From the NCBI GenBank assembly GCA_012103475.1, contig WLWS01000001.1:62001-126000 (forward strand): DNA of 64,000 nt, in the 5' to 3' direction. How positions within the stretch are numbered: the first letter of the stretch is position 1; every line of letters begins with the position of its first letter. The translations under genes were made by a program, and so were the position numbers. Source of the stretch: Gammaproteobacteria bacterium. Its GTDB lineage: Bacteria > Pseudomonadota > Gammaproteobacteria > Eutrophobiales > Eutrophobiaceae. The notes under the pieces were generated by a model. That model was not told the origin of the DNA and did no database searches. It saw nothing but the letters and a program-made list of their open reading frames with translations. This document shows, one piece after another, positions 23,158-49,770 of the stretch.

Positions 23158-23763
23158 ATGCAAAAACACAAACTCTCAAGAATACTATTTGGGCTTACAG
23201 TATCTCTGCTACCCGGTTTGGTTTTTGCCCATCATCCAAATGGCTACCAATTGCCTGCTTCGATGATGGAGGGTCTTTTATCCGGGCTCGGACATCCTGT
23301 GATTGGTCCTGAACATCTGGCTTTTATAATCGGTATTGGCATTCTTGCTCATGCACTGCGTCAGCGGATTCTGATTCCGGCTGTTTTTATCACCAGCGCA
23401 CTTCTTGGAACAATATTACACCTGAACAAGATTAATATTCCTCAGGTCGAAGCAATGATTGCTATATCTGTTGCCCTGCTCGGTTTGATACTATTTTGTA
23501 ACTGGCTTAAGAAACCTGCAGCGATTGCTCTTGCCCTCGGCGGTATCCTGCACGGCTATGCCTATGCAGAATCAATCGTTGGCGCCGAGACTACTCCCCT
23601 TGTCGCTTATCTTACTGGCTCCAGCCTTGTGCAATTATTAATTTGCGGTCTGGTAATCCTGATTTGTCAGGCAATTAATAAATCAAAACGCCTGTCGATA
23701 AACCCGTTATCAAAAGTCTACGGGTTGATTGCTGTGTTTGGTGGAGCTTATTTGCTGGTCTAG
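23158..23763 (+). CDS. HupE/UreJ-family membrane permease (nickel/cobalt type)
   Basis: About 201 residues. The track begins at TTG 23131, but ATG 23158 is preceded by AAGGAT at a normal distance and begins the signal-like MQKHKLSRILFGLTVSLLPGLVFA, so I chose it. HupE/UreJ features are visible: mature N-terminal HHPN, GLGHPVIGPEHLAFIIG (the family HPxxGxDHL motif with Glu for Asp) and the second LHGYAYAES. About six transmembrane segments follow. The family transports nickel or cobalt, often as a secondary permease. Divergent from a His-rich TonB receptor. Its stop overlaps the stop of the convergent alpha/beta hydrolase gene by four bases. Confidence 0.85.
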   Translation: MQKHKLSRILFGLTVSLLPGLVFAHHPNGYQLPASMMEGLLSGLGHPVIGPEHLAFIIGIGILAHALRQRILIPAVFITSALLGTILHLNKINIPQVEAMIAISVALLGLILFCNWLKKPAAIALALGGILHGYAYAESIVGAETTPLVAYLTGSSLVQLLICGLVILICQAINKSKRLSINPLSKVYGLIAVFGGAYLLV

Positions 23764-24572
23764 TTCTGCAGAAATTTTTCTATTACTTCGACCAGAACAG
23801 CTGGTCTGGTATCCATAGCACGATGCCTCTCCCCGGTTAATACCTCGAGTTTCGACGTAGGCATCAGTGAATGTAAGTACTGTGCACTGATTTGAAAGGG
23901 TTCTGGAGAGGCTCCACCGAGAAGAATAAGACAGGGGAGAGAGAGCTCTCCCAGGCCTTTCTCAACGATTCGATATTCAAAGGCTGCCCGCAGCTCACGT
24001 CCCAGGGTTGAGGCCGCTGCGACGCGTTCCTGCCAGATCGAGGATTTTTTTAGTTCCGTTATCTCTTTTTCACTGACTCTTGGAAATCGTCGCAGGAAAA
24101 ATTCGGTTGCGGCTTCGTTTCCACCGTGTCCAAGAATTTTTTCCATTTCATCAACATCAGCTATGTCGATAAACTCACATTGACCTGTGACTGATAAAGG
24201 CGCCTCGTAAAGGATCAGATGGTCAATAGAATTACTGTGCTTTGTCAGAGTTGCCAGTGCAATTAGTGCCCCGTATGAATGCGCGACAAGATCTACCGCT
24301 TTGCCCTTGCCGAAATGATTCAGAATACTATGAAGGTCTTCTATTTCATTTTGCAGTGAATAGAGATCAGCGTCAGTGCTTTTGCCTCTGCCGCGTCTGT
24401 CATATTCTATAACCTGCCTGTCTGCGACAAAAGCATCCGCTACTTTGCCCCAGCGTCTCGCCGAAGCTGCTGTACCATGCATAAAAATGATAGGCTTACC
24501 GCTGCCTCTTGAGACTACGTTTATCGAGACTTGTTTTGAAGATTGAATATTTACTGCTGATGCGTGTTCCAT
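23760..24572 (-). CDS. Alpha/beta-fold hydrolase
   Basis: A 270-residue cytoplasmic alpha/beta hydrolase. The oxyanion element HGTAAS, the family turn DRRGRGKS, nucleophile Ser in VAHSYGAL and a likely catalytic His in GERHRAMDTRP are all visible. Such enzymes cleave esters, lactones, epoxides or C-C bonds; which one is not clear. It is the last gene of a five-gene minus-strand operon that starts with hyuA and includes a StyA-like monooxygenase and an ABM protein, so it probably acts on an oxygenated intermediate of the same pathway. The gap to the preceding ABM gene is 45 bases. Confidence 0.88.
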   Translation of the reverse strand: MEHASAVNIQSSKQVSINVVSRGSGKPIIFMHGTAASARRWGKVADAFVADRQVIEYDRRGRGKSTDADLYSLQNEIEDLHSILNHFGKGKAVDLVAHSYGALIALATLTKHSNSIDHLILYEAPLSVTGQCEFIDIADVDEMEKILGHGGNEAATEFFLRRFPRVSEKEITELKKSSIWQERVAAASTLGRELRAAFEYRIVEKGLGELSLPCLILLGGASPEPFQISAQYLHSLMPTSKLEVLTGERHRAMDTRPAVLVEVIEKFLQN

Positions 24573-24617
24573 GCCCTCAATGTAAACAGGCTGGCGCGCT
24601 ATTACAACAGTTTAAGT

Positions 24618-24905
24618 TTAAACACGTTCGAAGAAACGAATGGTGGGTTCAGCGGCAGCAAGACTCATTAGTTTTTCCATATCACCACGTTCACCACGCC
24701 AGGCCAGGTATTTCTCATAGGCAGATTTTGATGCCCATTCTTCTATCATAAATACGGTATTCTGGATTTCGGCTTCAGTATGGAGATCAACCCGAATACA
24801 ACCCTCAAAGGCGCGTGTATCTGCCAGAGTCTCGGTAAACAAAGCAAGCAAATCGTTCTTTTTTCCTTCTTTTGCCTGTACGTCAAAGGTAATTACTATG
24901 CTCAT
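24618..24905 (-). CDS. ABM-domain (YgiN-like) small protein
   Basis: A 95-residue single-domain protein of the antibiotic-biosynthesis monooxygenase fold (dimeric alpha-beta barrel): KEGKKNDLLALFTETLADTRAFEGCIRVDLH, then FMIEEWASKSAYEKYLAW. Family members are cofactor-free quinone-forming monooxygenases or small accessory proteins. Encoded between a StyA-like monooxygenase and an alpha/beta hydrolase, it could handle an oxygenated aromatic product, but this is inference. The spacing (29 bases after styA, 45 before the hydrolase) supports one operon. Confidence 0.85.
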   Translation of the reverse strand: MSIVITFDVQAKEGKKNDLLALFTETLADTRAFEGCIRVDLHTEAEIQNTVFMIEEWASKSAYEKYLAWRGERGDMEKLMSLAAAEPTIRFFERV

Positions 24906-24934
24906 ATTTCCATTCTGCTCTATTCGATAAATAG

Positions 24935-26191
24935 TTACACGCTAAATTCAGCAATAAGTTTGTCCGCCTCTTTGTCATCCCAGTACCAGGGATGAAACTT
25001 GTAAGCTTCGCCAATGCAGTTTACAAACTTTTTCGCCAGGCTTTGATTCTGACTCGCGGCCTGCATTAGCTTCTGCTGTACCGGGCCGGGTCCATCAAGT
25101 GCTGTTGAGGTAAATTTGAGATTGTACTGTGCGGTTTCCCAGTACTCATCAAAACAGCTCTGCATCCATTCGGCACTGAACTCTTTCTCGCCATGCGCGA
25201 CAATTTGATCAAATAATAAACCCATCCATTTTGATGCTCCGTTAAGACCCTGAGCAACAATCGGATCGTTTACTATCGCAGCGTCCGCAACCGCGTAAAC
25301 AGGTTTACCACTTGGTAATGTGCCAACCGGTTTACGCACTGTCGGTGGAATTCTGCCGCATACCCATTCTTTTTCAGGCGTGGTTTCAGAATCTTCAATG
25401 AGTTCATATATCAATGGTTGATTCTGCCGAATCCACTCCTTGCCCATCGCATATTGCTCAGCGACATCGGCCTTATTGTCGAACATATCCATGCCTGCAC
25501 CCGGTACAGCTTCAAACTGCACATAATGATGTTCTTCATCGGACTTGCTGAGAAAGGGTGCTTTTATGACTTCACCAACTCCGGCGATGACACTGTAGCG
25601 ACTCAATTGCTTATCACGAATGCCCGGCATATCATCGAGCTGACGATACATATCGCAGCCCTGCGTGTAGAACATCGCTACCTGTCTTTGTGGCTCACTA
25701 TAGCTTGTTTTGCTTTGGTCTTTTTCAAACATTTCCATGAACTGGCCACGACCTGCGGCAACGATCACCAGATCATGAGTTGTCGCCATGTTCTCCAGGG
25801 AATCTGTATCACATTTTTCGATCACCAGGCGACCACCACGTTTCTCAAACTCATCCAGCCATTGACCAAACTTCATGCGTAAGTCGATACATTGCGCCGG
25901 CTTGTCAAACTCACCGTCGATTACCATTAGCTTCTCGCCCTGCGGAGAAAAAACCGAAAAAAACACGTGTTGTATTTCACTGTAGCGACTGTGTTTCCAA
26001 AAACGCAATTCCAGATCGTCTTCAAAACTGACCGAGGGCCCGAATTGAATCGTCACCGGCCGCCCGGGACCGTTGGTAATTTGCTCAGCTGTCATATCAG
26101 AATACAGCGTCGGCTCGTAACCAGCGCGCAGAAGTGCGAATCCGAGTTGTAATCCGGCCTGACCTGCGCCAACAATTGCGATTTTTCTCAT
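24935..26191 (-). CDS. StyA-like FAD-dependent monooxygenase
   Basis: A 418-residue two-component flavin monooxygenase related to styrene/indole monooxygenase. It begins MRKIAIVGAGQAGLQLGFALLRAG (GxGxxG Rossmann motif), continues with AEQITNGPGRP and QFGPSVSFEDDLE (substrate/flavin region of StyA), and has VADAAIVNDPIVAQGLNGASKW, the second FAD contact. There is no NAD(P)H-binding motif, so a separate flavin reductase should supply reduced FAD; the reductase-MarR fusion at 36.1-37.1 kb is the obvious candidate. StyA enzymes epoxidise aryl alkenes or oxygenate indole. The third gene of the hyuA-hyuB operon. The true substrate is unknown. Confidence 0.88.
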   Translation of the reverse strand: MRKIAIVGAGQAGLQLGFALLRAGYEPTLYSDMTAEQITNGPGRPVTIQFGPSVSFEDDLELRFWKHSRYSEIQHVFFSVFSPQGEKLMVIDGEFDKPAQCIDLRMKFGQWLDEFEKRGGRLVIEKCDTDSLENMATTHDLVIVAAGRGQFMEMFEKDQSKTSYSEPQRQVAMFYTQGCDMYRQLDDMPGIRDKQLSRYSVIAGVGEVIKAPFLSKSDEEHHYVQFEAVPGAGMDMFDNKADVAEQYAMGKEWIRQNQPLIYELIEDSETTPEKEWVCGRIPPTVRKPVGTLPSGKPVYAVADAAIVNDPIVAQGLNGASKWMGLLFDQIVAHGEKEFSAEWMQSCFDEYWETAQYNLKFTSTALDGPGPVQQKLMQAASQNQSLAKKFVNCIGEAYKFHPWYWDDKEADKLIAEFSV

Positions 26192-26201
26192 AACTTTGTA
26201 C

Positions 26202-28280
26202 CTATCCCAGGTTGCTCAATAACTCCGGATAATCCTTGCGAGCATTATAATGACTGATATCGGGCGCTGTTTTCAGCGCACGAATGCGCATTTCATCTGC
26301 ATCGTCGAACTTAAGTGCCAATTGCGCCAATGGTCCAAGATCAACAGTACCAGCTTTCACACTTTTTGAAATCTTTACCCAGCTGCGTAAAGGTGCACCG
26401 ATTGCCGGCACGAATTCCAGCATGTCATCTTCCTTCAAATTCAGGCGTTTCGCGTCAGCCGGATTCAGGCTCGTCAGACGACAGCCACGATGGTCGTAAA
26501 CATCTTCCTTCGCCAGCGATATTTTAATCGTTTCTCTTGTTGCAGCCAGTTCCTTACGTCTGTTTTCAGTCGCTGCAGTATCGATACCACCATTTTTTAC
26601 AATCACACCGTATACATCACGGGCACGTGCTTCACTTACGTATTTCAGTGAGACATCTTGCAAGACACGTTCCGGATCTCTTTGCAGTGGATCGCCAACA
26701 CCACCACCGGCGGTCGCACGCATGATCACCAGATCATCACGCTGGAGCGGAAAAGACCGAACCTTGCCTGGCAAAGAGGAAGGCTCGACTGATTTGCCAT
26801 TGCGAATCACGCCGCAGGCGTTGAACCCGCCTTCAGCTGCGCCGGCGACACCCCAGTGTGGTATCACTGAAGCATCGGACATCACATTAAGCTGACTATT
26901 ATCGCTTAATACCCGTATACGCTGGGTGATGCCAAAACCACTGCGAAACTCACCGGCTCCTTCTCCATCACAAGTCACTTCGGTGCTTTCGATACGTAAG
27001 GGCTGTCGCTGCTCTGAACTTTCTACCGGATATATGCTGGGTACATCCCCGCCATCATAGGATGGACTGCCAGTGGTGCCATCGCTTCGACTGGTAGCGG
27101 GAAATCCGCCCTGCGGGTATTCATAAAGAATATGATGGCGGGCAGCAACTGGATCGTAACTGGTTATGTAAATGTGATTAATCGTTTCCATTGCACCACC
27201 ACCGGCATTTTCTGCTTGTACCTGACTGAAGATGCCGGAGACTGCTGACTGAATTTTCCGGTAAAGCTCCCAGACGCCGGCTACCGCACGTGGTGGATTA
27301 CAATTAACAACACTGCCTTCCGGTAGAATGAAATCTATCGGTCTGAAAGTACCACCATTTACCGGTGTATCTGGATCCAGCCAGGCCTTAACAACCACAA
27401 ATGCACCAGCCTGAGTGACCGCTGGACCTATATTCATCGGACCTTCGAATTCATCGGCGCTACCGGTAAAGTCAAAAGACAAAGTATCGTCTTTCACCGT
27501 CATACGAATACGCAGCGCTACCGGATCTGGCGTAATGCCGGTGCTATCGCAATAGTGCTCGACATAATACTCACCCGGTTCGAGCTTTTTTATTTCGTCT
27601 TTCAAGGTTTGTTCAGCCCGATCCAGTAAGGTATCGCGGCACAACTCAACCACATCAGTGCCATACTTGTCACATAATTCATTAATCTGCGCATCACCGA
27701 CACGCACACTATCGAGCATGGCCAGTGCGTTGCCTTCCTGCTCATCGGCGATACGAACGTTGGCAAAAAGAATATCCCAGAGATCCTGGTTTAACTCACC
27801 CTGATTTACCAGCTTTACCGGTGGAATGCGGACGCCCTCCTGATAAATCTCAGTGTCCTGCCCGGAAAAACTACCCGGGTTTGCACCACCCACATCAGAC
27901 CAGTGTGCACGCACAGTCTCAAACAAAATGATCTCACCGTCGATAAAATGTGGCTTATAAAATGCAATATCGTTCAGATGAGTACCACCAGTGTAAGGAT
28001 CGTTAAACATATACACATCACCGGGTTTCATTCTTCCACCGAACTTTTGCAATATCGGCGTCAAGCCAACCTGCAGGGAAAATACGTGCCCTGAAAAATC
28101 GCCTTCAGACATGGCGACCAGCTCGCCTGTCGGACTCAACAAAGCACAGGACAAATCCCGCGTGTCGTAAAGAATCGGTGCGAATGAAGTGCGGATCAGT
28201 GTTGCCCGCATATTGCGTACGGTGGTGATAAAGGAACCCTGTACAACTTCTACGGTAATTGGATCAGGTGTCGTGCTCAT
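26202..28280 (-). CDS. hyuB: Hydantoinase B/oxoprolinase-type subunit with C-terminal extension
   Basis: A 692-residue HyuB-family protein (VEVVQGSFITTVRNMRATLIRTSFAPI at the start, then DVYMFNDPYTGGTHLNDI). HyuB pairs with HyuA in ATP-dependent hydrolases (N-methylhydantoinase, 5-oxoprolinase) and in acetone/acetophenone carboxylases. The protein is longer than the usual 550-590 residues: after the conserved core the last 90-100 residues form LTSLNPADAKRLNLKEDDML and WVKISKSVKAGTVDLGP, reminiscent of a double-psi beta-barrel. The gene follows hyuA by four bases and precedes the StyA gene by ten. The combination with a flavin monooxygenase suggests hydrolysis or carboxylation of an oxidised intermediate (inference). 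Confidence 0.88.
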   Translation of the reverse strand: MSTTPDPITVEVVQGSFITTVRNMRATLIRTSFAPILYDTRDLSCALLSPTGELVAMSEGDFSGHVFSLQVGLTPILQKFGGRMKPGDVYMFNDPYTGGTHLNDIAFYKPHFIDGEIILFETVRAHWSDVGGANPGSFSGQDTEIYQEGVRIPPVKLVNQGELNQDLWDILFANVRIADEQEGNALAMLDSVRVGDAQINELCDKYGTDVVELCRDTLLDRAEQTLKDEIKKLEPGEYYVEHYCDSTGITPDPVALRIRMTVKDDTLSFDFTGSADEFEGPMNIGPAVTQAGAFVVVKAWLDPDTPVNGGTFRPIDFILPEGSVVNCNPPRAVAGVWELYRKIQSAVSGIFSQVQAENAGGGAMETINHIYITSYDPVAARHHILYEYPQGGFPATSRSDGTTGSPSYDGGDVPSIYPVESSEQRQPLRIESTEVTCDGEGAGEFRSGFGITQRIRVLSDNSQLNVMSDASVIPHWGVAGAAEGGFNACGVIRNGKSVEPSSLPGKVRSFPLQRDDLVIMRATAGGGVGDPLQRDPERVLQDVSLKYVSEARARDVYGVIVKNGGIDTAATENRRKELAATRETIKISLAKEDVYDHRGCRLTSLNPADAKRLNLKEDDMLEFVPAIGAPLRSWVKISKSVKAGTVDLGPLAQLALKFDDADEMRIRALKTAPDISHYNARKDYPELLSNLG

Positions 28281-28284
28281 AAAC

Positions 28285-30309
28285 TTATTCCTGTATGCGT
28301 CTGATGTGTAGATTTCCGAATTTATCAGTTGCTGCCTGCCAGCCAGGAGACAACACGGTCGTGGAACCGTACTCCTGAATAACGGCCGGACCTAAGACAT
28401 CGGAATCTGTTGTTAGTTGTGCCCGCTGATAAACGCTGCACTTATGAAAGCTGCCGTCAAAATAAATTTCTCGTGAATCGCCGGATTCGTCTTCACCGTC
28501 GCTCACGGGTGCCGGTACCGGTTTGTCCACAATGCCGGATGCGATAACACGCAGGTAGACCAGCTCAATCGGCTTCTCTCTGCGGTTATAGCCATAGACA
28601 TTTTCGTAACGTTCGTTGAATCTGCTTTCCAGATCTTTCAGGCTGACGTTCTCATCAATCGGTACCTCCAGCTGGAAAGACTGCCCTGAATAACGCATGT
28701 CTGCGCTGCAGCGAATGTCAATACGATCCTCTGCCAGCCCTTCATCACGCAATTGCTGTCTGCCTTCGACTTCCATTTCTTTTATCAGTTTGTGGATGAC
28801 GTTTATATCCGCATCCTCAAACTCAGTGACATAAGTACGTACATGATCATGCTGTAGATCGGTGGTGAGCAAGCCGGTCGCACAGGCGTTACCTGGATTG
28901 GCCGGAATCAAAATGTGATCAATGCCAAGTTCTTCAGCAACCGAGACCACGTGCATAGGCCCGGCACCACCCATCGGCATCAGGGCAAAGTCACGAGGAT
29001 CTAAGCCGCGCTCTACTGAAACCGTACGTACAGCACCGGCCATATTGTTGTTGCAAATTTTCAATATGCCTTCGGCGACTCGATAAGGATCATCAATACC
29101 AATTTTCCTGCCCAAACCCTTAATTGCTTTTTCCGCGAGTTTCTTATCAAACTGCATCGCGCCACCCAGCGCGGAAGACTCTCCTATGCGTCCAAGCAAG
29201 AGGTTCGCATCGGTGACGGTTGGTTCCGTGCCACCGCGCTGATAGCAGGCGGGTCCTGGCATGGCACCGGCGCTACGAGGCCCCACTTTGAGACTGCTGT
29301 CCTTATCTATCCAGGCAACACTGCCACCACCTGCACCAATCGCAATAATGTCCAGCTGCGGAGTCTTGATCACGGTACCTGCAAACTGACGCTCGTGGGT
29401 AACAATCGGGTTTAAATCCTGAATCAAACTGATATCAGTACTGGTTCCACCCATGTCGTAGGTAATAACATTGTTTACTTTTGCGTAATTACCTATGTGT
29501 ACTGCAGCGCGTATGCCTGCCGCCGGCCCGGAAAGTAAAAAACGTACCGGTTGTGACGGTGCTGCAGCTTCGGTGAGAATGCCTCCGTTGGACGTCATAT
29601 AAAACAATTCACCGGCGTAACCTGCATCGCGCAGCGTTTTGCTGAGTTTCACCAGATAACGGCTGACGGAAGAATCTACATAGGCATTCAATACAGTAGT
29701 TGCCCAGCGTTCAAACTCACGAAACTCCGGCGATACTTTCATCGATTCGGAAACACCTACATTGGGCAGCGCCTTTTTGATGCGTTCGCCGATGTAATGT
29801 TCGTGTTCCGCATTGGCGTATGAATTCAACAAGCAAACCGCCACCGACTCAATCCCGTCTGCCTTGATTTTTCCAATAATGGAATCGAGCTCCTCATCAT
29901 CAACGGCAACCAGAGTTTCACCATTCGGACCGATACGCTCAGTAATTTCGTAACGTAGATTACGTGGAATAAAAGGCGCCGGTCGCTGATAGTGACGATT
30001 AAAAATAACGTTGTCGGCGTAGACTCTCAATTGACCGATTTCAACAATATCGCGGTGTCCTTTTGTTACGACCACTGCGGCACTATTACTACCTCTTTCC
30101 AACACCGCATTGGTAGCGATGGTTGTGCCATGTACTATTCGGGAAACTTTTGTCAGATCTACATTGAGTTCCTGCAGACCGTTCATGAATGCTCTGGTCG
30201 GATCGTCCGGCGTTGATGCCGTCTTTGCGACTTGCAGGGCATTATTGTCATCATCGAACACTACGAAGTCGGTGAAGGTCCCACCTGTGTCTACGCCTAT
30301 ATTAAGCAT
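28285..30309 (-). CDS. hyuA: Hydantoinase A/oxoprolinase-type ATPase subunit
   Basis: A 674-residue HyuA-family protein with the actin-like ATPase motifs: MLNIGVDTGGTFTDFVVFD (phosphate-1), GTTIATNAVLERG, ITYDMGGTSTDISLI (phosphate-2) and GGAGPMHVVSVAEELG. HyuA subunits activate a carbonyl group at the cost of ATP for hydrolysis or carboxylation by HyuB. It is the first gene of a five-gene minus-strand operon (hyuA, hyuB, StyA-like, ABM, hydrolase). Upstream, 98 bases before its start, lies a CGGATAG-type direct repeat that probably binds the nearby AraC regulator. Whether the complex is a hydantoinase, an oxoprolinase or an acetophenone-carboxylase-like enzyme cannot be told from sequence. 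Confidence 0.9.
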   Translation of the reverse strand: MLNIGVDTGGTFTDFVVFDDDNNALQVAKTASTPDDPTRAFMNGLQELNVDLTKVSRIVHGTTIATNAVLERGSNSAAVVVTKGHRDIVEIGQLRVYADNVIFNRHYQRPAPFIPRNLRYEITERIGPNGETLVAVDDEELDSIIGKIKADGIESVAVCLLNSYANAEHEHYIGERIKKALPNVGVSESMKVSPEFREFERWATTVLNAYVDSSVSRYLVKLSKTLRDAGYAGELFYMTSNGGILTEAAAPSQPVRFLLSGPAAGIRAAVHIGNYAKVNNVITYDMGGTSTDISLIQDLNPIVTHERQFAGTVIKTPQLDIIAIGAGGGSVAWIDKDSSLKVGPRSAGAMPGPACYQRGGTEPTVTDANLLLGRIGESSALGGAMQFDKKLAEKAIKGLGRKIGIDDPYRVAEGILKICNNNMAGAVRTVSVERGLDPRDFALMPMGGAGPMHVVSVAEELGIDHILIPANPGNACATGLLTTDLQHDHVRTYVTEFEDADINVIHKLIKEMEVEGRQQLRDEGLAEDRIDIRCSADMRYSGQSFQLEVPIDENVSLKDLESRFNERYENVYGYNRREKPIELVYLRVIASGIVDKPVPAPVSDGEDESGDSREIYFDGSFHKCSVYQRAQLTTDSDVLGPAVIQEYGSTTVLSPGWQAATDKFGNLHIRRIQE

Positions 30310-30406
30310 GACTTCTCCTGTAAATACTGCTCATGTTTGTGATATTGAGCCTGCACGGTTCCTGAGCCGACTCGAGTAATATTCTGTCGCTTAAATGTAG
30401 CTGCGA

Positions 30407-30436
30407 CTATCCGCCAGCGGGGTCTTTACTAGCCGA
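30407..30436 (-). promoter_or_regulatory. Direct-repeat operator upstream of hyuA
   Basis: On the minus strand, two half-sites CGGCTAG and CGGATAG (plus-strand CTATCCG at 30407 and CTAGCCG at 30429) lie 22 bp apart, 98 bases before hyuA. The same arrangement lies before the TonB receptor (33529), and related 21-bp repeats before the AhpD paralogue (34875) and the flavin reductase (37143). Direct repeats of about two helical turns are typical of AraC-family sites. Confidence 0.5.
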
Positions 30437-30457
30437 AATTTCCAGACTCAAATCAAC

Positions 30458-31060
30458 CTAGCTAGTAGCGTCGTGCTTACCGAGTTGCCAACCACTGTCT
30501 TTGAGTACCGTCTCACCGGTTTGCCTGGGTGGTCGTTCAAGCTCGGTACCCATGGTGTCGTTCCAGCGGTTAAAAAAACCCATCATTGAGACAAGCGAAA
30601 TAATCTGCACAATCTGGTTTTCGTTATAATGCTGTTTTAATTCTTCAAACTGTGCATCGCTAACATCACTCGGACATCTGCCCGCGCCAACAGCAACCCG
30701 TAATGCGGCACGCTCTGCTTCAGAAAAATGCTCGGAACTTTCAAAGTCCTTTATCGCCTGAAGTTTCTCGTCCGGTACGCCAAAACGACCTGCCGTAAAG
30801 GCAGTATGCGCAACGCAGTATTGACAACCGTAAGAACGTGAACAGGCATAGCAAACTAGCCAACGTAAATGCTCACCCACCTCCTTTGAGCTCTCCAGAA
30901 CCGAATTACATAAGTCCAGTGCAGCAGTCATGATCGGCGGTACTCTGGCCATGGTCAGCCAGTCATTACATTCGAATCCAAGCAGTTCATTGAGTTTTTC
31001 AATCAACTCCTGATGTTCAGGTGCGAGCACTTCAATTGATAATGGTTCAAGCCGGGGCAT
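30458..31060 (-). CDS. AhpD/carboxymuconolactone-decarboxylase-fold protein (paralogue 1)
   Basis: A 200-residue all-helical AhpD-like protein with the redox or catalytic motif GCQYCVAHT (CxxC plus His) near residue 77. CMD-fold members are peroxidase partners (AhpD) or lactone decarboxylases. It shares LGF, LTMAR.P, FNRWN and a C-terminal WQLGKH with two more copies at 33.6 and 34.2 kb, so the three are diverged paralogues of one local family. It lies 64 bases downstream of the frameshifted TonB receptor on the same strand. Function in this pathway is unknown; peroxide or organic-hydroperoxide protection during flavin monooxygenase activity is one possibility. Confidence 0.85.
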   Translation of the reverse strand: MPRLEPLSIEVLAPEHQELIEKLNELLGFECNDWLTMARVPPIMTAALDLCNSVLESSKEVGEHLRWLVCYACSRSYGCQYCVAHTAFTAGRFGVPDEKLQAIKDFESSEHFSEAERAALRVAVGAGRCPSDVSDAQFEELKQHYNENQIVQIISLVSMMGFFNRWNDTMGTELERPPRQTGETVLKDSGWQLGKHDATS

Positions 31061-31124
31061 AAACGTGAATCTCCTTTGTTAGCTTCTTACATTTAAGTGG
31101 GGTGGATTTGGCTTGGTTGTACGT

Positions 31125-32651
31125 TCAGAAAAATGAACGTCTTAAATTCAAGCTCCACTCTCTACCGCGGTCGCGAATCACTTCAGAGATGCCAAGATTT
31201 GCAGTGGGGCCATTCTGCTCTGAGTATCCCGCTGAAATATAGCGTTCATTAGTCAGGTTTCGACCTTGCGCTGAAAACATCCACTTACCGTCGTTACTTT
31301 CAAACGTGACTCCGAGATTAACCAGAGAAAAAGCATCCTGCGCTGTGGTACTGGAATTAATTGCGTTACTGAAGTAGGAAGCGCGATAGGTCAGGTCCAC
31401 TCTGGGCGTGATGGTGCCGATATCCGCCCAGTCCCAGGTATAGGCCAGAGCCGCAGTACCAGACCATTCAGGTGTCTTCACCAGCTTATTGTTAATACCT
31501 AAACCGGTTCCCGGATCAACTTCTGTGTATTCACCATCAATGTAACCAACGCCACCTTCAATCAGCCAGTTTTCCGCTGGCACTGCCTGCAGGTCGAGTT
31601 CAAACCCCTTTACTTCGGCGGCGCCCGCATTTTGCACCAATGGTGCAACGGAGTTTGCCTGAGATACTATCTGCAAATCTTCATAGTCACTGAAAAAGAA
31701 AGCACCGTTTAAACGTACACGGTTATCAAAGCCCTGCCATTTGAAACCCGCTTCGTAGACCGTAACAAACTCAGGTTGAAATGAGGGTGCAGCTGCCAAT
31801 GGCGGGAAGACTCGTTGGGTAAAGCCACCGCTCTTGAAACCTTCTGAATAGGTAAAATAAGTGAGCAGGTCTTCAGTCCACTGATAACCGATGCTGGCCA
31901 TCGGATCGAGTTCCTGAACAGAGATTTTCGCTTCGGTATTGGGAAGCAGCAGAAATCCGGGTGGTGGTATCGGTGGTACCAGACCGGGGCCGAATCCAAG
32001 CAGGAAGGGAGGTACCGAAGCATTGTTATTGGCAATGATAAATTGATCCGGCGTAAAACGCTTGGTGTCGTCGGTATAACGTAAACCAAGGGTAATGCTC
32101 AATTTATCATTAAAGTCATAAGTACCCTGAGCAAAGAATGCCAGACTGTCGTTTTCTACCGCGCCGCCTGACTGAAAATCGACTGGTGAAAAAGTCACAC
32201 GCTCAAGATAAGCACCCTCTTCTTCAAAATAATAAGCTCCCAGTATCCAGTTCAATTTGTCATCAAAGGAAGTCCCCAGCAACTGAATTTCCTGAGTGAA
32301 TTGCTCATGCGTCGAATCAGATAAGACCTGCGCAATCGTCAGTGGTGAATGGTCTTCGTCAAGACTGAATTCACTGTCTGTATCTCGATAAGAGGTAATT
32401 GATTTAACCGTGAGATTACTATTCACTTCCCACTCAATAGTTCCGGCCAGACCCAACACATCAAGCTCATCCTTGGCTGGCACTGTGCCAAATTCAGTAT
32501 CTCTGTCAGACGGTACCCATTGTCCATTGAAGCAAGCGGGGTTGGTACTGTCGGTGCTACCGGTACCAAATGGCGGTGGTACGAAGCAACCATCAGTCGG
32601 TGGTCTGAGAAAAGCATTGTGAAACTGTGGAAAAGCTGCATTGGCTTGCAC
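31125..32651 (-). pseudogene. TonB receptor, barrel part after frameshift
   Basis: In a second frame this ORF continues the receptor from about QANAAFPQFHNAF through the barrel (TSYRDTDSEFSLDEDHSPL, FFAQGTYDFNDKLSITLGLRYTDD, FTYSEGFKSGG) to the aromatic end WSLNLRRSFF. The in-frame sequence extends upstream of the listed Met as DTNGAPFTQVDV, so the break with the plug part is near 32690. The expected sequence VDVTRSDTN is restored by adding one C to ACCGC, so a single-base deletion, real or a sequencing error in a short C run, explains the break. Confidence 0.85.
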
Positions 32652-33445
32652 ATCAACCTGTGTAAACGGCGCGCCATTGGTATCACTGCGGTAACATCGA
32701 CGGCGAAATCGACGGTAACAGAATCAGACACTAACCAACGTAAAGCGACATTACCCGCCAGCATATCGTCATCACCAAGATCAGTGCCGTCCGGTCGAAT
32801 CACATATCCATCGCGGTTTTTTGAGATTACCGTTCCCTTGGCAAAAAGATTTTCTGTTATGCCACCGTTCAACGTAAACTTGCCGTTTATCATGTCGTCG
32901 GAACCGTAAGTCAGACTGGCATCAGCACGAAACTCTTCATTCGGCTTTTTGGTTGTAATATTGATGGCGCCGCCAATCGTATTGCGACCAAACAGCGTGC
33001 CCTGTGGTCCGCGCAATACTTCTATTCGTTCGACATCCACCAGATCCAGTGAACCACCCACAGAGCGGGCCAGATACACGCCATCTACATAGGTACCGAC
33101 ACCCAGATCAATGGTTGGGATCGCAGCATCCTGTCCAATACCTCGTATATAAACAATCGCAGCATTGTTGCTACCGCCGATAGTGGCTGCCTTATCAAAG
33201 GTCATATTCGGAGTGAAGCTACCAATCTCAGAGAGATTATCGATTCCCCTTTTTTCCAGACCATCAGCTGTGAAGGCCTGTATGGATATTGGCGTGTCCT
33301 GCAGGCTTTCCTCTCGCTTTCGAGCGGTAACGATGATTTCTTCGATAACTTGTGCCTGTACGCTAACAAATGGTATTGGACACATGGCTATGCTCATGCA
33401 GACCCAGATAATTCGGCTAAATTTAGTATGTAATGGATTCGCCAT
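32423..33445 (-). pseudogene. TonB receptor, plug and first strands before frameshift
   Basis: The N-terminal part of a TonB-dependent receptor. It has a signal peptide ending near VSVQA, the TonB box EEIIVTARKREESLQDTP, and a plug with IRGIGQDAAIPTIDLGVGTYVDGVY and VEVLRGPQGTLFGRNTIGGAI-like motifs. True homology runs to about AVDVT at 32690, after which the last 80 or so residues are out of frame. Together with 31125..32651 it would make a receptor of about 770 residues. It sits in the first catabolic island between AhpD-like genes, and a 22-bp direct-repeat operator lies 84 bases upstream, so it was probably the uptake receptor for this pathway. Confidence 0.88.
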
Positions 33446-33528
33446 TGTCAGATTCCCCTGTGGCTAGTGATAAATGATGCAGAAATTCTATTTGCAACTG
33501 TCTTTTTATAACGCCGGGCAAAAAGCGG

Positions 33529-33558
33529 CTATCCGCCTTTGCCACTGGAAGTAGCCGT
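33529..33558 (-). promoter_or_regulatory. Direct-repeat operator upstream of TonB receptor
   Basis: Minus-strand half-sites CGGCTAC and CGGATAG, 22 bp apart, 84 bases before the receptor start. The geometry and half-sites match the hyuA site. A TATAAA-like box lies about 25 bases further towards the gene. The AraC-type gene 1.4 kb away is the likely binder. Confidence 0.5.
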
Positions 33559-33587
33559 TTTTTCCGTTGCTCAGATTATTGAGTACT

Positions 33588-34190
33588 TCAGGCGTCGTGC
33601 TTGCCAGCCTGCCAGTTATCTTCAGACAGGTAGCTTTTACATAAAGCCAGGGGAGTCGGTTCGATGGTTGCCGCAACTGCACTATTGAAACGATTAAAAA
33701 CGCCAAACTGACAAATGATGAAGAGTGCTTCTGTGATTTCTTCCTCGCTGAAATGCTTTCTCATCTCGGTGTAATCATCGGCTTCGACAGCGCTGGGCGT
33801 CTGTCCTGCCTTAAATGCAAAAGAAAGCGCTGCGCGTTCACTCGGCTCAAAAAGAGGGTTTGTTTCAAACTCCCAGACCGCTGCTATTTTTTCACCGCTT
33901 ATGCCCAAATCGTGAGCACGGTTAACGTTATGTGAGGCGCAATACTCACAGCCTGCGGCAGAACTGGTAATCAAACCGATAAGGTAAAGCAAAGGTTCTG
34001 GCAGTAAAGGCCTGGCATAGAGCGTTTTCACAAAATCAATCAGGGCCTTGGTCGAACGCGGTTTGCGGGCCATAGTCAATTCAGTATTCGGAACGAAACC
34101 GAGGAAATTGATTAAATCCTGATAGGTTGGTTCCAGCTCAGGCGTGTCTTCGCGCTTCAGCGGTTTTAAGTAAGGTCCTTTCTTTAGCAT
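33588..34190 (-). CDS. AhpD/CMD-fold protein (paralogue 2)
   Basis: A 200-residue helical protein with GCEYCASHN (CxxC plus His) near residue 84. It shares the layout LGFxPN, LTMARKP, EREALxFAF, FNRFN and the C-terminal DNWQAGKHDA with paralogues 1 and 3. It is closest to paralogue 3, 23 bases upstream on the same strand, so the pair likely arose by local duplication and is co-transcribed. Reductase-coupled peroxidase activity is possible because the CxxC is intact. Substrate unknown. Confidence 0.85.
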   Translation of the reverse strand: MLKKGPYLKPLKREDTPELEPTYQDLINFLGFVPNTELTMARKPRSTKALIDFVKTLYARPLLPEPLLYLIGLITSSAAGCEYCASHNVNRAHDLGISGEKIAAVWEFETNPLFEPSERAALSFAFKAGQTPSAVEADDYTEMRKHFSEEEITEALFIICQFGVFNRFNSAVAATIEPTPLALCKSYLSEDNWQAGKHDA

Positions 34191-34213
34191 TTTTCTTTCC
34201 TCTGGCAGAATTT

Positions 34214-34813
34214 TCAGGTGTGTTTGCCAATCTGCCAGTGTTGCTCCGGCAGTGTTACTTCTGAAAAGGCACGTGGTTTTTGTTCAAGCTGAGTGGCAAC
34301 GCTATCGTTCCAACGATTGAAGAATCCCATTTGACAAACCACCAGCAGAATTTCGCAGACTTCAGTCTCACTAAAATGCTTTTGCATATGGTCGTAGTCA
34401 CTCTGCTCTAAAGCGCTCGGGCTTTGTGCTGCCTTAAAGGCGAAATCCAGAGCAGCGCGTTCTTTCTCATCAAACAAAGGACTACTCGCATAGTCCCAGA
34501 CCGCCGCAATCTTCTGTGTATCAATGCCGGCATCATTACAGTTATTCGCGCTGTGTGCGGTACAGTATCGACAGCCGGACACCGCGCTGGCGACCACAGT
34601 TATAAGTTGAATCAATTGTGTTGAAATCGTTGCTTCCTGAATTACCGTAATGGCAAATTCGATGTAGGCTTTTGTTGCCTGCGGCAGGCGCGCCATAGTC
34701 AGGACATCATTTGCTGAAAAACCGAGATACTCTTCCGTCACTTGAAAGATTGATTCCAGTTCCGGTACGTCTTCTCGTTTCAGGGGCGTAAGGTATGGTC
34801 CATTAGTTGTCAT
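34214..34813 (-). CDS. AhpD/CMD-fold protein (paralogue 3)
   Basis: A 199-residue helical protein with GCRYCTAHS (CxxC plus His) and the same blocks as its two paralogues: YLGFSAND, LTMARLPQATKA, FNRWNDSV and the C-terminal HWQIGKH. It is the first gene of a run of two AhpD genes followed by the TonB receptor and paralogue 1. Sixty-two bases upstream is the best copy of the local direct repeat (CTATCCGA twice, 21 bp apart), so this is probably a directly AraC-controlled promoter. Confidence 0.85.
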   Translation of the reverse strand: MTTNGPYLTPLKREDVPELESIFQVTEEYLGFSANDVLTMARLPQATKAYIEFAITVIQEATISTQLIQLITVVASAVSGCRYCTAHSANNCNDAGIDTQKIAAVWDYASSPLFDEKERAALDFAFKAAQSPSALEQSDYDHMQKHFSETEVCEILLVVCQMGFFNRWNDSVATQLEQKPRAFSEVTLPEQHWQIGKHT

Positions 34814-34874
34814 CTGCTATTCAGCTCTGCCAGGAAATTATCTGCCAATTCTGAATGCGACAGTGTTTACACGG

Positions 34875-34903
34875 CTATCCGAGAATACCGTTCATCTATC
34901 CGA
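34875..34903 (-). promoter_or_regulatory. Perfect 8-bp direct repeat, AraC-type operator
   Basis: CTATCCGA occurs at 34875-34882 and again at 34896-34903, exactly 21 bp (two helical turns) apart, in the gap between an AhpD gene and the AraC gene. On the minus strand the half-site reads TCGGATAG. It is the cleanest of four related repeats in the island. Confidence 0.6.
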
Positions 34904-34949
34904 TAATTCCATATAAGAAGAGAATTTGCCGAAGGCCGGCGAACTCTGT

Positions 34950-35978
34950 TTATTGAATCTTACGCGCTAAGGTTTCTGAAGGGAGTTCGCCATACTGGTT
35001 TTTGTAATAGCTAGCGAAACGGCTGAAGTGATTAAAACCACAGTCCATGGCGACAGTTGTCACCGAGACAGATGTTAATTTTGCTGTGCTAAGAATATCG
35101 TGGGCCAGACGCAGGCGTTCCTGCCTCAGGTATTCCATAGGTGTTACCCCATAGTGCTTTTTGAACTCGGTATAAAGTGAGGTTCGCGCCATACCGGAGG
35201 CACCCACCACGTCTTCAAGACAAATATCTTCCCTGGCATGCTGTTTTAGGAAATTGGCGGTTTGCTTACAGGCTGCTGAGGGTCGGGCATCCGATTCCTC
35301 GGAGAGCAAAGCACTGTAATTGTTCGGCACACGCAATAACACCATCGATGCCAGCAAGGTTTCAAGCTCACGACCAACCGCATCGAAAGTGATGTGCGTA
35401 GCATGTTGCTGGCATTCACCCCAGAGCTGCATCACCAGATTACGCACAGGTTCAGAACCGCCTGTCAAAGCCTGAGGGTGCGGCTCAAAAGTCACCGGAG
35501 CATGCGGAATTCTGCCAAGATGATTCGCAAGCGCACTGTCTATAGCACTTTTCGTCAGACTGACGCTGATATTGCGATAGTCACTGGATGCTTCCAGCGT
35601 CACCGGGCGATTAGGGTTAATAATGGTGACCGTATCCCGATCTCCTTCAATTCGACGAGCATCCGAGGTAATTGCGTAGTCACCACCAAGCGGAAACATG
35701 ACACAGTAATTGCCTGCAGCAAATTCACCAATATCGTTACGCAGCTCCGCGCCATAGGCGAGTTCATTAATACAAATGTCCCGCAACCAGACGAAGCTGT
35801 GTTCAAAGGAAATCTCGCGACGCGTACTGTTTGGCACGATCTGATGCGGCCCGAATAAACTGGAGATACGCTTGATGGCGACATCTACGTTAGTAGTTCT
35901 AAAGTGTGTAATACCGCCAGAACGACTCATGGTCTCGGAAGTACTGGCCATATTATTTGACGCCATGCTTATCGACAT
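34950..35978 (-). CDS. AraC-family transcriptional regulator 1
   Basis: A 342-residue regulator. The N-terminal half is an AraC-binding-like sensor (ITHFRTTNVDVAIKRISSLFGPH, then FVWLRDICINELAYGAEL and YCVMFPLGGDYAI). The C-terminal double HTH has LEDVVGASGMARTSLYTEFKKHYGVTPMEYLRQERLRLAHDIL and VTTVAMDCGFNHFSRFASYYKNQYGELPSE, which is the AraC signature. It is surrounded by the AhpD, TonB receptor, hyu and flavin-reductase genes and by four direct-repeat sites that fit AraC-type binding, so it is the probable activator of the first island. It lies downstream of the flavin-reductase gene and may be co-transcribed with it. Confidence 0.92.
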   Translation of the reverse strand: MSISMASNNMASTSETMSRSGGITHFRTTNVDVAIKRISSLFGPHQIVPNSTRREISFEHSFVWLRDICINELAYGAELRNDIGEFAAGNYCVMFPLGGDYAITSDARRIEGDRDTVTIINPNRPVTLEASSDYRNISVSLTKSAIDSALANHLGRIPHAPVTFEPHPQALTGGSEPVRNLVMQLWGECQQHATHITFDAVGRELETLLASMVLLRVPNNYSALLSEESDARPSAACKQTANFLKQHAREDICLEDVVGASGMARTSLYTEFKKHYGVTPMEYLRQERLRLAHDILSTAKLTSVSVTTVAMDCGFNHFSRFASYYKNQYGELPSETLARKIQ

Positions 35979-36130
35979 AATTACCTACCAATGCGGCTTG
36001 CTGTTGCTTTGCTGACTCGACTTTGAGTCTGCGCGCGCCAAATCCCGAAGTCAAGCTGTTACAGATCAATTAGAACACCCTAAGTGTCTGTATCTATAGA
36101 CTTTATTCGCCCCATTTTGGTGCTCATTCA

Positions 36131-37111
36131 TCAACTGGAGCCTGATTCCACTACTTTGAACAAAGGCTCGTTAATGCGTCTGAGCATATTGCGCAGCATG
36201 TCCTTTAATTGTCGGCGCTCAGCAGCCGAATAATCCACCATCACACTGGCTTCATGTGCAGTCGCTGCTGCCATCAAAGGAATCAGTTTATTCATGCCAG
36301 TCTCTTCGACAAACAACTTCACGGCTTTCACATGATCTGATTCGATTCGAATCCAGCCTTTGTTCTGCATCTCCGACACAATTTCTTCAAGCTTAGTACG
36401 ATCAACAAGAGTCAATGTTGATAGCTCTTCGTAATCCACAGCAACATATTCACTTACGCAGCTAAGTATGCGCCACTCAAAGCGACTCACCTTTTGCTTA
36501 TCCAGCTCCGCCTGAAACTGTTTTTCAAAGGCGTTAGCTGTCTGTGATAAAAGATAATCCAGATAGTCCTGGACAAAGGATTTGCTTGTAGTCTCAGCAC
36601 TATCCGCTTTTGCCGCAGGGTGACGTTCAGATACTGCGTATTGCCCCTGATGATAGAGCAAACCGCTACGATCTGTTGTCTGAAAATCAACTACTTCACC
36701 GACAAATATCAAATGATCACCACCTTCGTAAGTGAAACGTTTTTGACATTGAAAATACGCAGCGCAATCCGGAATCAGGGGAATACTGCCGACGCCTGTA
36801 TCGCAATTCAAATCAGCAAATTTATTCTCCACCCCAGGTCTGGCAAAATGATTTGAGAGTTCAATCTGATCGTCAGCAAGAATATTCACAATGAAGTAAT
36901 CACTGTTTTCATAGGTCGATAAGGTACCGCTATTGCGATTCAGGCTCCACAGTATCAGAGGTGGGTTCAAAGAAACGGAGTTGAAACTGTTTGCTGTTAC
37001 GCCGACACAGCCTTCGTTCTTATCGGCTGCGGTGATGATTGTCACCCCGGTGGCAAAGTGTCCGAGTGCGTGGCGGAAGGCCGTGGCATCAAAAGCTTTT
37101 TCAGTGTCCAT
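36131..37111 (-). CDS. Flavin reductase fused to MarR-like domain
   Basis: A 326-residue protein. Residues 1-165 are an HpaC/StyB-type short-chain flavin reductase (FRHALGHFATGVTIIT, GVTANSFNSVSLNPPLILWSL, VGEVVDFQT). Residues 185-325 form a MarR-like winged-helix domain (FEWRILSCVSEYVAVDYEELSTLTLVDRTKLEEIVSEMQNKGW). The same architecture is known in the reductase component C1 of Acinetobacter 4-hydroxyphenylacetate hydroxylase, where the MarR-like part is an autoinhibitory substrate-sensing module. It is the best partner here for the StyA-like monooxygenase at 25 kb, which lacks an NAD(P)H site. A direct-repeat operator lies just upstream. Confidence 0.88.
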   Translation of the reverse strand: MDTEKAFDATAFRHALGHFATGVTIITAADKNEGCVGVTANSFNSVSLNPPLILWSLNRNSGTLSTYENSDYFIVNILADDQIELSNHFARPGVENKFADLNCDTGVGSIPLIPDCAAYFQCQKRFTYEGGDHLIFVGEVVDFQTTDRSGLLYHQGQYAVSERHPAAKADSAETTSKSFVQDYLDYLLSQTANAFEKQFQAELDKQKVSRFEWRILSCVSEYVAVDYEELSTLTLVDRTKLEEIVSEMQNKGWIRIESDHVKAVKLFVEETGMNKLIPLMAAATAHEASVMVDYSAAERRQLKDMLRNMLRRINEPLFKVVESGSS

Positions 37112-37142
37112 CTAATTATTATATGGAGCACCTCAGGCAGCT

Positions 37143-37171
37143 CTATCCACCTCTGCCAGACGACTATCCGT
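37143..37171 (-). promoter_or_regulatory. Direct-repeat operator upstream of flavin reductase
   Basis: CTATCCA at 37143 and CTATCCG at 37164 are 21 bp apart. The near half-site lies only 32 bases before the reductase ATG, so it would overlap the promoter, and a TATAAT lies right at the start codon. This weaker site belongs to the family seen at 30.4, 33.5 and 34.9 kb. Confidence 0.4.
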
Positions 37172-45164: not shown

Positions 45165-46187
45165 TTATCTGCTTTGCTTGTCAGAAAGCCAGGTTAGCTG
45201 CGCGCTTTCCTTAATTCCCAGTACCACTTGTCTGTCTTCCCACGCCCGGGCTTTTACATAGTGCTGAATTTTCTCTACCTGTGCTTTCTTGAGCACATCG
45301 TTGAATGCTGCCATACCGTTCGCTGCCAGAATGCCTTCCAGAACGATGCGATCGAAAATTTCGTGTCGCTCTGCCGGCAGCAAACGCAGATCAGGAATTG
45401 ATCCGCCAGATCGCGCTAGTAATCCGTGACACATAGCACAATAATTATTATAGAGTCCCTCACCTTCGCCCAGTACAGCACTTTCTACCGCAATTCTGGT
45501 TTGCTCCGGGATAATTTTATCCACGACGCTGGCGGGAGGTAATTCTTCTTTTCCACCCAGTGCAAAAGTCAGCAGGCGTCCGAAGTTGCCATACTTTGTT
45601 GAGGCCGTATCGGTCTCGCCACCGAACAAGTCTGCGCCTCCGCCACCGGTAAGAACAGAAAGGTATTGTCTGTTATTAAATTCGAATGTGACCGGTGGCG
45701 CCAATATTGAGGTATAGGTATTGAACTGCCATAAGAGTTCCCCGTTCTCCTTATCATAGGCACTCAATTGACCTGCTGCATCTCCCTGAAAAACCAGACC
45801 ACCAGCGCTTGCCAGTACACCACCATTCCAGTAATAAGGGTTTCGTACACTCCACTTTGTTTCTCCAGTGAGTGGATCAAAAGCTTTCAGAGCACCACCA
45901 GGTGTCGGTTGTTCAGCAACATTGTCTATAAACAATTGCGCCAGCCGACCCATTTCCAGTCCAATGTTCCAACGACCCGGATCGCGACGATAAGATCCGA
46001 ATTGCTTCCATTCGTCGGCAATGGAAAAAATAAGCGGACTTTCCTGGGTAGGGATGTAAACCAGCCCGGCATCGACATCAACTGACATCGCCTGCCAGTT
46101 ATGAGCCCCGGCAGACCCCGGTAACACCCATTTTTCTTTTTCGAGGTAGTCCAGTTCGGAATTTTCGACCGGCCGCCCAGTCTCCAT
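45165..46187 (-). pseudogene. PQQ alcohol dehydrogenase, C-terminal part with cytochrome c
   Basis: The continuation, in the same frame, of the PQQ dehydrogenase after its internal TAG. It has the end of the beta-propeller (GGALKAFDPLTGETKWSVRN, SAYDKENGELLWQFNT, ILAPPVTFEFNNRQYLSVL) and a C-terminal cytochrome c domain with haem motif CAMCH and a downstream Met region (AANGMAAFND). The listed Met is internal; no ribosome site fits, so separate translation is unlikely. The expected residue at the break is Trp (VT-W-ASHVD-METGRP). Confidence 0.88.
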
Positions 46188-46202
46188 ATCAACATGACTG
46201 GC

Positions 46203-47375
46203 CTAGGTAACGAGGCTATAAGGGTGAGCTCTCAACAACTCACCATCACTACGATCCAGAACATAGAAAAAGCCGTTCTTGGGAGCCTGCATCAGCACCT
46301 TGCGTAGCTGACCATCTACTTTCATTTCGGCCAGAGCAATGTCCTGTACCGCGGTATAATCCCAATTGTCTCCCGGAGTTGTCTGGTAGTACCACCTCAT
46401 CTCACCAGTGTCCGCATCAAGCGCAACAATGGATGAAAGAAAAAGATTATCACCACCTTCTGGTGAGCGAATCGCACGCGCCCAGGGAGAACCGTTACCA
46501 ACTCCTATATAAAGATGATTAAATTCCGGATCGTAAACAATGCTGTTCCAGACAGTGCCACCACCACCGTGCTTCCACCATTGATCTCCCGTCCAGGTGC
46601 TCGCGGCATGTTCCAGTTCTTTATGTTCAAAGGGTAAAGAGGGATCACCGGGAACTGTAAAGAATCGCCATAGCTGCTCACCGTTTTGCGCATCATAAGC
46701 CGTAACATAACCACGTACACCGAATTCAGCTCCGCCATTACCAATAAAAACTTTTCCACGTGCGACCCGTGGTGCACCGGTAATGGTGTAAAAGCGCTCG
46801 CGATCGATCAGCGTATCGACCTGCCATAGTTCTTCACCATTTGAAGCATCAAGTGCGATTAGCCGACCATCGAGTGTGCCTACGTAGACGCGCCCTTTAT
46901 AAATGGCCACGCCTCGATTAACCGCATCACAACAGGCTCGTCGCGACCAGTCCCTGGGAACCTGCGGATCAAACTGCCAAAGTACTTCACCGCTATCCGC
47001 CTCGATCGCAAACACCCGACTCCATGCGCTGCTGACATACATGATGCCATCGATAACTAAAGGGGTAGCTTCCTGAGCACGATTGGTGCCCATATCCAGA
47101 TGCCAGGCCAGGCCGAGCTCAGAGATTGAATCGCGATTGATATCCTTCAGCGGTGAAAAGCGACGTTCGTGATAACCCAGACCATAAGCCAGCCAGTTTC
47201 CCTCCTCGCTGGCATGATTGATGATGCGTTGATCGTCCACATCAGCAACTGTTGCTTTCAGGACAGGTATCTTAGCCGGATTCGATTCAGCTGACTCCGG
47301 TGGCGTCGACTCGCTACAGGCTGCTAACAGCAAGAAAGTTACTGACGCAAAATATTTATATGCACTGAGATTCAT
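46203..47375 (-). pseudogene. PQQ-dependent alcohol dehydrogenase, N-terminal part
   Basis: A 390-residue fragment of a quinohaemoprotein alcohol dehydrogenase. It begins with a lipoprotein signal (FLLLAACSE), then has the eight-bladed propeller repeats GEVLWQFDPQVPRDW and RLIALDASNGEELWQVDT, the vicinal cysteines ACCDAVNRG and DALDADTGEMRW-like blades typical of PQQ-ADH. At 46203-46205 the frame ends in TAG where relatives have TGG (Trp), a single G-to-A change; reading on is fully in frame with 45165..46187. The whole protein would be about 736 residues. Operator B lies about 105 bases upstream. Confidence 0.9.
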
Positions 47376-49659: not shown

Positions 49660-49770
49660 CGCTACGCCCTTTTTGTATCCCAGAGATGCAAACTGTCTGT
49701 GTTCGGCATCGTTCTCAGCAAAATCCCAACCGGCGAAAACTTGTACATTTATTCTCGGACCGGTACTGGC

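Follow-up and report, generated by a model that had tools for sequence, protein, structure and literature searches.

The window analysed here is a 64,000-nucleotide stretch of the genome of a marine gammaproteobacterium of the family Eutrophobiaceae (assembly GCA_012103475.1), corresponding to positions 62001-126000 of the 1.17 Mb contig WLWS01000001.1; the genome comprises 17 contigs and 4.2 Mb and is estimated to be 87% complete. Our subject is an operon in this window that combines a HyuA-HyuB pair with a flavin monooxygenase and two small enzymes, together with the genes that appear to be regulated with it. The operon consists of the following genes, given in window coordinates and in order of transcription:

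28285-30309, minus strand: HyuA, ATPase subunit of an ATP-dependent lactamase/hydantoinase, 674 amino acids (Pfam PF01968/PF05378/PF19278; Hydant_A_N + Hydantoinase_A + Hydant_A_C)
26202-28280, minus strand: HyuB, metal-dependent hydrolase subunit, 692 amino acids (PF02538, Hydantoinase_B, E 1.8e-143)
24935-26191, minus strand: flavin monooxygenase of group E, from a separate clade, 418 amino acids (Smoa_sbd, E 2e-16)
24618-24905, minus strand: small ABM-domain protein, 95 amino acids (PF03992, ABM, E 2e-12)
23760-24572, minus strand: alpha/beta hydrolase, 270 amino acids (PF12697, E 8e-16; AHSYG serine motif at residues 97-101)

All five open reading frames (ORFs) are intact, the spaces between them are 4, 10, 29 and 45 bases, and base composition is even throughout the cluster. 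The ORF check thus confirmed the positions and gaps reported in the initial annotation, and the Pfam assignments bear out the enzyme class that it gave to each gene.

For the HyuA-HyuB pair, ATP-driven hydrolysis and ATP-driven carboxylation had both been suggested. HyuA scored 456 bits with N-methylhydantoinase and 383 bits with caprolactamase (6yra, labelled 5-oxoprolinase), compared with 263 bits for acetophenone carboxylase and 216 bits for acetone carboxylase. In a tree of the window HyuA, four solved references and twelve paralogues from the same genome, the carboxylases were split from the hydrolases at 100/99, and the window HyuA fell among the hydrolases (caprolactamase/N-methylhydantoinase). 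Phosphate motifs are found in HyuA at residues 7 (DTGGT) and 285 (DMGGTSTD) and an adenosine motif of the GxxPGP type at residue 348 (GAMPGP), while D42, H101, D104 and H126 of HyuB correspond to the metal ligands of CapB, which form an Asp-His-Asp-His site. The importance of the phosphate motifs and of these metal residues has been shown by mutation in caprolactamase (PMC8453981), and in the window pair all residues known to bind ATP or metal in that enzyme are retained. The scores against the caprolactamase models were 561 bits for HyuA and 235 bits for HyuB, relative to cut-offs of 1000 bits. The cluster has a single A subunit and no additional carboxylase subunit. The HyuA tree and this subunit count favour the hydrolytic half of the earlier suggestion and disfavour carboxylation, so that HyuAB is best predicted to be an ATP-dependent cyclic-amide hydrolase rather than a carboxylase. 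HyuB also carries an extra C-terminal region of ~115 amino acids (about residues 578-692; 26202-26558), for which only a weak match was obtained, to Molydop_binding, a molybdopterin-dinucleotide-binding barrel (E 0.013); the HyuB paralogues of this genome end near residue 560-590 and so appear to be without the extension.

The monooxygenase is a group E two-component flavoprotein, as judged from its Smoa_sbd domain and from full-length matches to 9lrq, 7z4x and 3ihm. Among solved structures it is closest to 9lrq (E 2.4e-78) and then to 7z4x (E 1.8e-74), which we take to be the Variovorax indole monooxygenase VpIndA1, the PDB label being only 'putative dehydrogenase/oxygenase subunit'; 3ihm, labelled styrene monooxygenase A, is far more distant (E 6e-24). 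The nearest characterised sequences are indole monooxygenases, at ~37% identity. With the NCBIfam StyA model the protein scored 159 bits, far under the 550-bit cut-off, and it is therefore a relative of StyA and not StyA itself. Styrene enzymes have the fingerprint N46-V48-H50-Y73-H76-S96 and indole enzymes S46-Q48-M50-V/I73-I76-A96 (PMC13101512); the window enzyme has P46-T48-Q50-I73-V76-A96. The same P-T-Q triplet is present in a paralogue in the same genome (63% identical) and in a protein of Plesiocystis pacifica (55% identical). In a maximum-likelihood tree of 34 sequences these three enzymes form one clade with support of 100/99, separate from the indole enzymes, the styrene enzymes and an Acinetobacter enzyme with a skatole-like gene context. 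Neither StyC nor StyD was seen beside the monooxygenase. We reject a styrene pathway on the fingerprint, the tree and the missing StyC/StyD genes, and the aryl-alkene substrate initially envisaged is not supported. The indole-like substrate proposed along with it is in keeping with the best solved relatives, which are of the indole type, but the enzyme does not have the indole fingerprint, which makes indole itself doubtful, and we disfavour it on this sequence comparison.

A comparison of promoter regions provided the strongest new evidence. A putative operator, GGMTAS-N15/16-GGATAG, was found upstream of hyuA and of three other transcription units that lie beyond it:

30407-30434, minus strand: operator 97 bp ahead of the hyuA ATG, GGCTAG-N16-GGATAG
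33529-33556, minus strand: operator 83 bp ahead of the receptor ATG, GGCTAC-N16-GGATAG
34875-34901, minus strand: operator 61 bp ahead of the ATG of the AhpD pair, GGATAG-N15-GGATAG
37143-37169, minus strand: operator 31 bp ahead of the flavin reductase ATG, GGATAG-N15-GGATAG

The genes of these neighbouring units, and a regulator gene among them, are:

30458-31060, minus strand: AhpD/CMD protein (PF02627)
31125-33445, minus strand: TonB-dependent receptor in two ORFs (32423-33445 and 31125-32651), with a Plug domain
33588-34190, minus strand: second AhpD/CMD protein (PF02627)
34214-34813, minus strand: third AhpD/CMD protein (PF02627)
34950-35978, minus strand: regulator of the AraC/XylS type, closest to AndR, which regulates anthranilate dioxygenase (139.7 bits with the AndR model, cut-off 350)
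36131-37111, minus strand: flavin reductase, with the reductase of p-hydroxyphenylacetate hydroxylase as its nearest match (PF01613; NF045919 257.7 bits, StyB 98 bits)

The first AhpD gene, 65 bases behind the receptor, is probably part of the receptor unit. The same putative operator was also found upstream of the paralogous monooxygenase elsewhere in the genome; the further intergenic regions checked in the window were without it. Genome-wide scanning gave seven matches, compared with one for the reversed control; five of the seven are at the two monooxygenase modules, and the remaining two fall within unrelated genes, one for an M28 peptidase and one for a multihaem cytochrome. Operators of the XylS/CphR type consist of two direct repeats, each TGCA-N6-GGNTA, with a period near 21 and located just upstream of the -35 region (PMC6205950, PMC1360089). 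All five sites identified here have tandem half-sites of four bases-N6-GGNTA and a period of 21-22 bp, but the outer sub-motif is YGGN rather than TGCA in 7 of 10 half-sites (background 0.036; nominal P 8e-9, post hoc). Hexamers resembling a -10 sequence occur 17-21 bp downstream of the operators with 4-6 matches, a level of which the lower end, 4, is also reached by 30% of random positions; the flavin reductase has a perfect TATAAT, and the other four hexamers are at best fair. The AraC protein encoded at 34950-35978 is 54% identical to the one beside the second monooxygenase, and AndR is the nearest match of both. It is the likely activator, and its family and the layout of the sites would predict that it binds the tandem operator. 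The common operator thus probably places operon, reductase and receptor in one regulon, with the AhpD genes tied in as well and with unit limits of ~23760-37169; it backs the connection between the operon and these neighbours that had been drawn initially. The flavin reductase is likely to be the partner of the monooxygenase.

The sister module (locus L012:6808-11238) has the paralogous monooxygenase at contig position 295825-297072, a RidA gene upstream of it with the operator lying between the two, and an AndR-like AraC gene. A nitrile hydratase is encoded on the opposite strand, its alpha subunit containing a CTLCSC metal motif. The two modules therefore have the same kind of monooxygenase and the same operator, the second without HyuAB. 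Carbon-nitrogen groups are the targets of nitrile hydratase, of RidA and of HyuAB alike, so the common substrate class would most simply be an N-heterocycle or a nitrile side-chain derivative. Although no literature search was made on this point, we know of no described pathway with a monooxygenase, RidA, nitrile hydratase and an AndR-like AraC protein.

From the gene content, the intact catalytic residues, the hydrolase-side phylogeny and the shared operator, all read from the sequence, we propose with a probability of about one half that the five genes make up the enzymatic core of a substrate-inducible regulon for an indole-like N-heterocycle. In this proposal we infer the substrate, the order of steps, the binding of the AraC protein to the operator and the functions of the ABM protein, the hydrolase and the AhpD proteins. 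The AndR/XylS-type activator would bind the tandem operators and turn on four transcription units, namely the receptor with its AhpD gene, the two further AhpD genes, the flavin reductase, and hyuA-hyuB-styA-ABM-hydrolase. The indole-like N-heterocycle would then be taken up and oxygenated to a lactam. HyuA would activate the lactam with ATP, bicarbonate being optional, and the metal site of HyuB would hydrolyse the activated lactam to an amino acid for further breakdown. Oxidised or ester-type intermediates might be processed by the ABM protein, a possible cofactor-less monooxygenase by its domain, the solved relatives of which are all uncharacterised, and by the alpha/beta hydrolase, the closest solved relative of which is 3r0v. 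More tentatively, the whole may represent an undescribed aerobic route by which a marine N-heterocycle is broken down: a group E monooxygenase of a new clade would make a lactam and HyuAB would open it, with the sister module serving a related nitrogenous compound under the same operator.

There is a precedent for the second half of this route in IaaCE, an enzyme of the HyuAB type for which ATP-dependent hydrolysis of the N-heterocyclic ring in 2-oxoindoleacetate has been proposed (PMC8453981). Here the likeness, by description only, is in the ATP-dependent opening of an oxidised indole lactam; the indoleacetate pathway of IaaCE is anaerobic, whereas the operon in the window includes an oxygen-dependent flavin monooxygenase. 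CapAB and N-methylhydantoinase resemble the window HyuAB in their ATP and metal residues and in phylogeny, and differ from it in the sub-cut-off model scores, the C-terminal extension of HyuB and the operon context. The indole operons (iif, and GS-ABCD of Providencia) have, as here, an AraC regulator, a group E monooxygenase and a flavin reductase (PMC9871250), but they use a short-chain dehydrogenase (SDR) and a cyclase-family (PF04199) or other hydrolase where HyuAB is found here, and their monooxygenases have a fingerprint that ours is without. In the skatole (ska) clusters the group E monooxygenase is likewise without the styrene and indole fingerprints (PMC13101512); it is paired with a Rieske ring-hydroxylating oxygenase, in place of the HyuAB seen here. 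The literature searched contained no pathway combining hydantoinase, indole and styrene monooxygenase, the sole co-occurrence being in a review of amino-acid cascades. This agrees with the view in the initial annotation that no described pathway has this gene set. Taken singly, the enzymes are all of known families; as a set the genes are apparently unique.

Several other explanations must be weighed against this proposal. The leading one reverses the order of steps, so that an imported lactam, hydantoin or diketopiperazine-like natural product would be opened by HyuAB at the expense of ATP, and the aromatic or vinyl product so released would then be oxygenated by the StyA-like enzyme. A TonB receptor in the regulon fits a larger imported molecule, hyuA-hyuB head the operon, and HyuAB relatives take many lactams (PMC8453981). 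However, HyuAB is missing from the sister module, where the same kind of monooxygenase and the operator are present; a HyuAB product is thus not a general requirement of the monooxygenase, and we regard this order as unlikely, though less so than the remaining alternatives. It seems improbable that the cluster is a standard operon for the degradation of indole or skatole which happens to have unusual accessory genes: its AraC and flavin reductase frame is that of such operons and, among characterised enzymes, those for indole are the nearest to the monooxygenase, but the fingerprint is unlike theirs, the clade is separate from both indole and skatole-like enzymes, and the usual SDR and cyclase genes are absent.

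A slightly poorer prospect still is that HyuAB carboxylates a ketone from the monooxygenase branch, as in acetophenone degradation. Acetone and acetophenone carboxylases are indeed among the HyuAB relatives, yet HyuA is split from them at 100/99 and scores 456 and 383 bits with hydrolases against 263 and 216 with the carboxylases, and the one A subunit is accompanied by no further carboxylase subunit in the cluster. The least probable explanation is that HyuAB and the monooxygenase are chance neighbours from unrelated pathways, recently brought together. The finding of the combination in no other genome examined would suit it, but base composition is uniform across the cluster, and the gaps of 4 and 10 bases with one operator upstream imply co-transcription of the five genes.

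Some observations weigh against our proposal of a regulon for an indole-like N-heterocycle. The indole fingerprint is shared by the window monooxygenase only at I73 and A96. Neither an SDR nor a PF04199 cyclase is present among the cluster genes (six PF04199 matches lie elsewhere in the genome). Four of the sites counted for the operator also served to define it, so that independent support comes only from the site at the paralogue and from the rarity of the motif in the genome. The receptor is frameshifted, its two ORFs overlapping in different frames, which may represent an assembly indel or a gene in decay. Finally, the five-gene order was absent from every other genome examined, an outcome that the initial annotation had named as one that would refute it, and the gene set may therefore be lineage-specific.

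This distribution was seen at several levels. No relatives of the monooxygenase were found among 53 genomes of the source order, and samples of 369 genomes from the class and 399 from the phylum yielded only enzymes of 31-38% identity within the E-value limits used. A genome scan with both monooxygenases gave seven loci, none of them with HyuA, HyuB, ABM or the hydrolase (E<=1e-5); it was based on two short peptide patterns and so was not exhaustive. At the Plesiocystis locus with the 55% identical enzyme, HyuA, HyuB, ABM and AraC were unmatched within 10 kb. Plasmid searches gave identities of only ~37% for StyA, 33% for HyuB and 42% for HyuA. On an Agrobacterium vitis plasmid (L048:6001-9254), a distant group E monooxygenase and a flavin reductase adjoin a dihydropyrimidinase and a nucleoside hydrolase; the dihydropyrimidinase is an unrelated cyclic-amide hydrolase, and this is another pairing of the group E oxygenase family with cyclic-amide hydrolysis.

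The genome studied here holds an unusual load of roughly 16 to 18 HyuA/HyuB pairs and ~17 ring-hydroxylating oxygenase genes. Several of its HyuA/HyuB copies are split or have an internal TGA, and near the cluster a PQQ dehydrogenase and a DUF3604 gene (45165-47375 and 47554-51051) are also split. These cases suggest sequencing indels or widespread decay.

If the proposed route is correct, the group E flavin monooxygenases would gain a natural role beyond styrene, indole and skatole. Oxygenase chemistry would be joined to ATP-driven lactam opening, which the literature searched links to oxidised indoles only anaerobically. The occurrence of two modules under one operator would make the inducer directly testable by reporter, and HyuAB enzymes opening aryl lactams would be useful catalysts.

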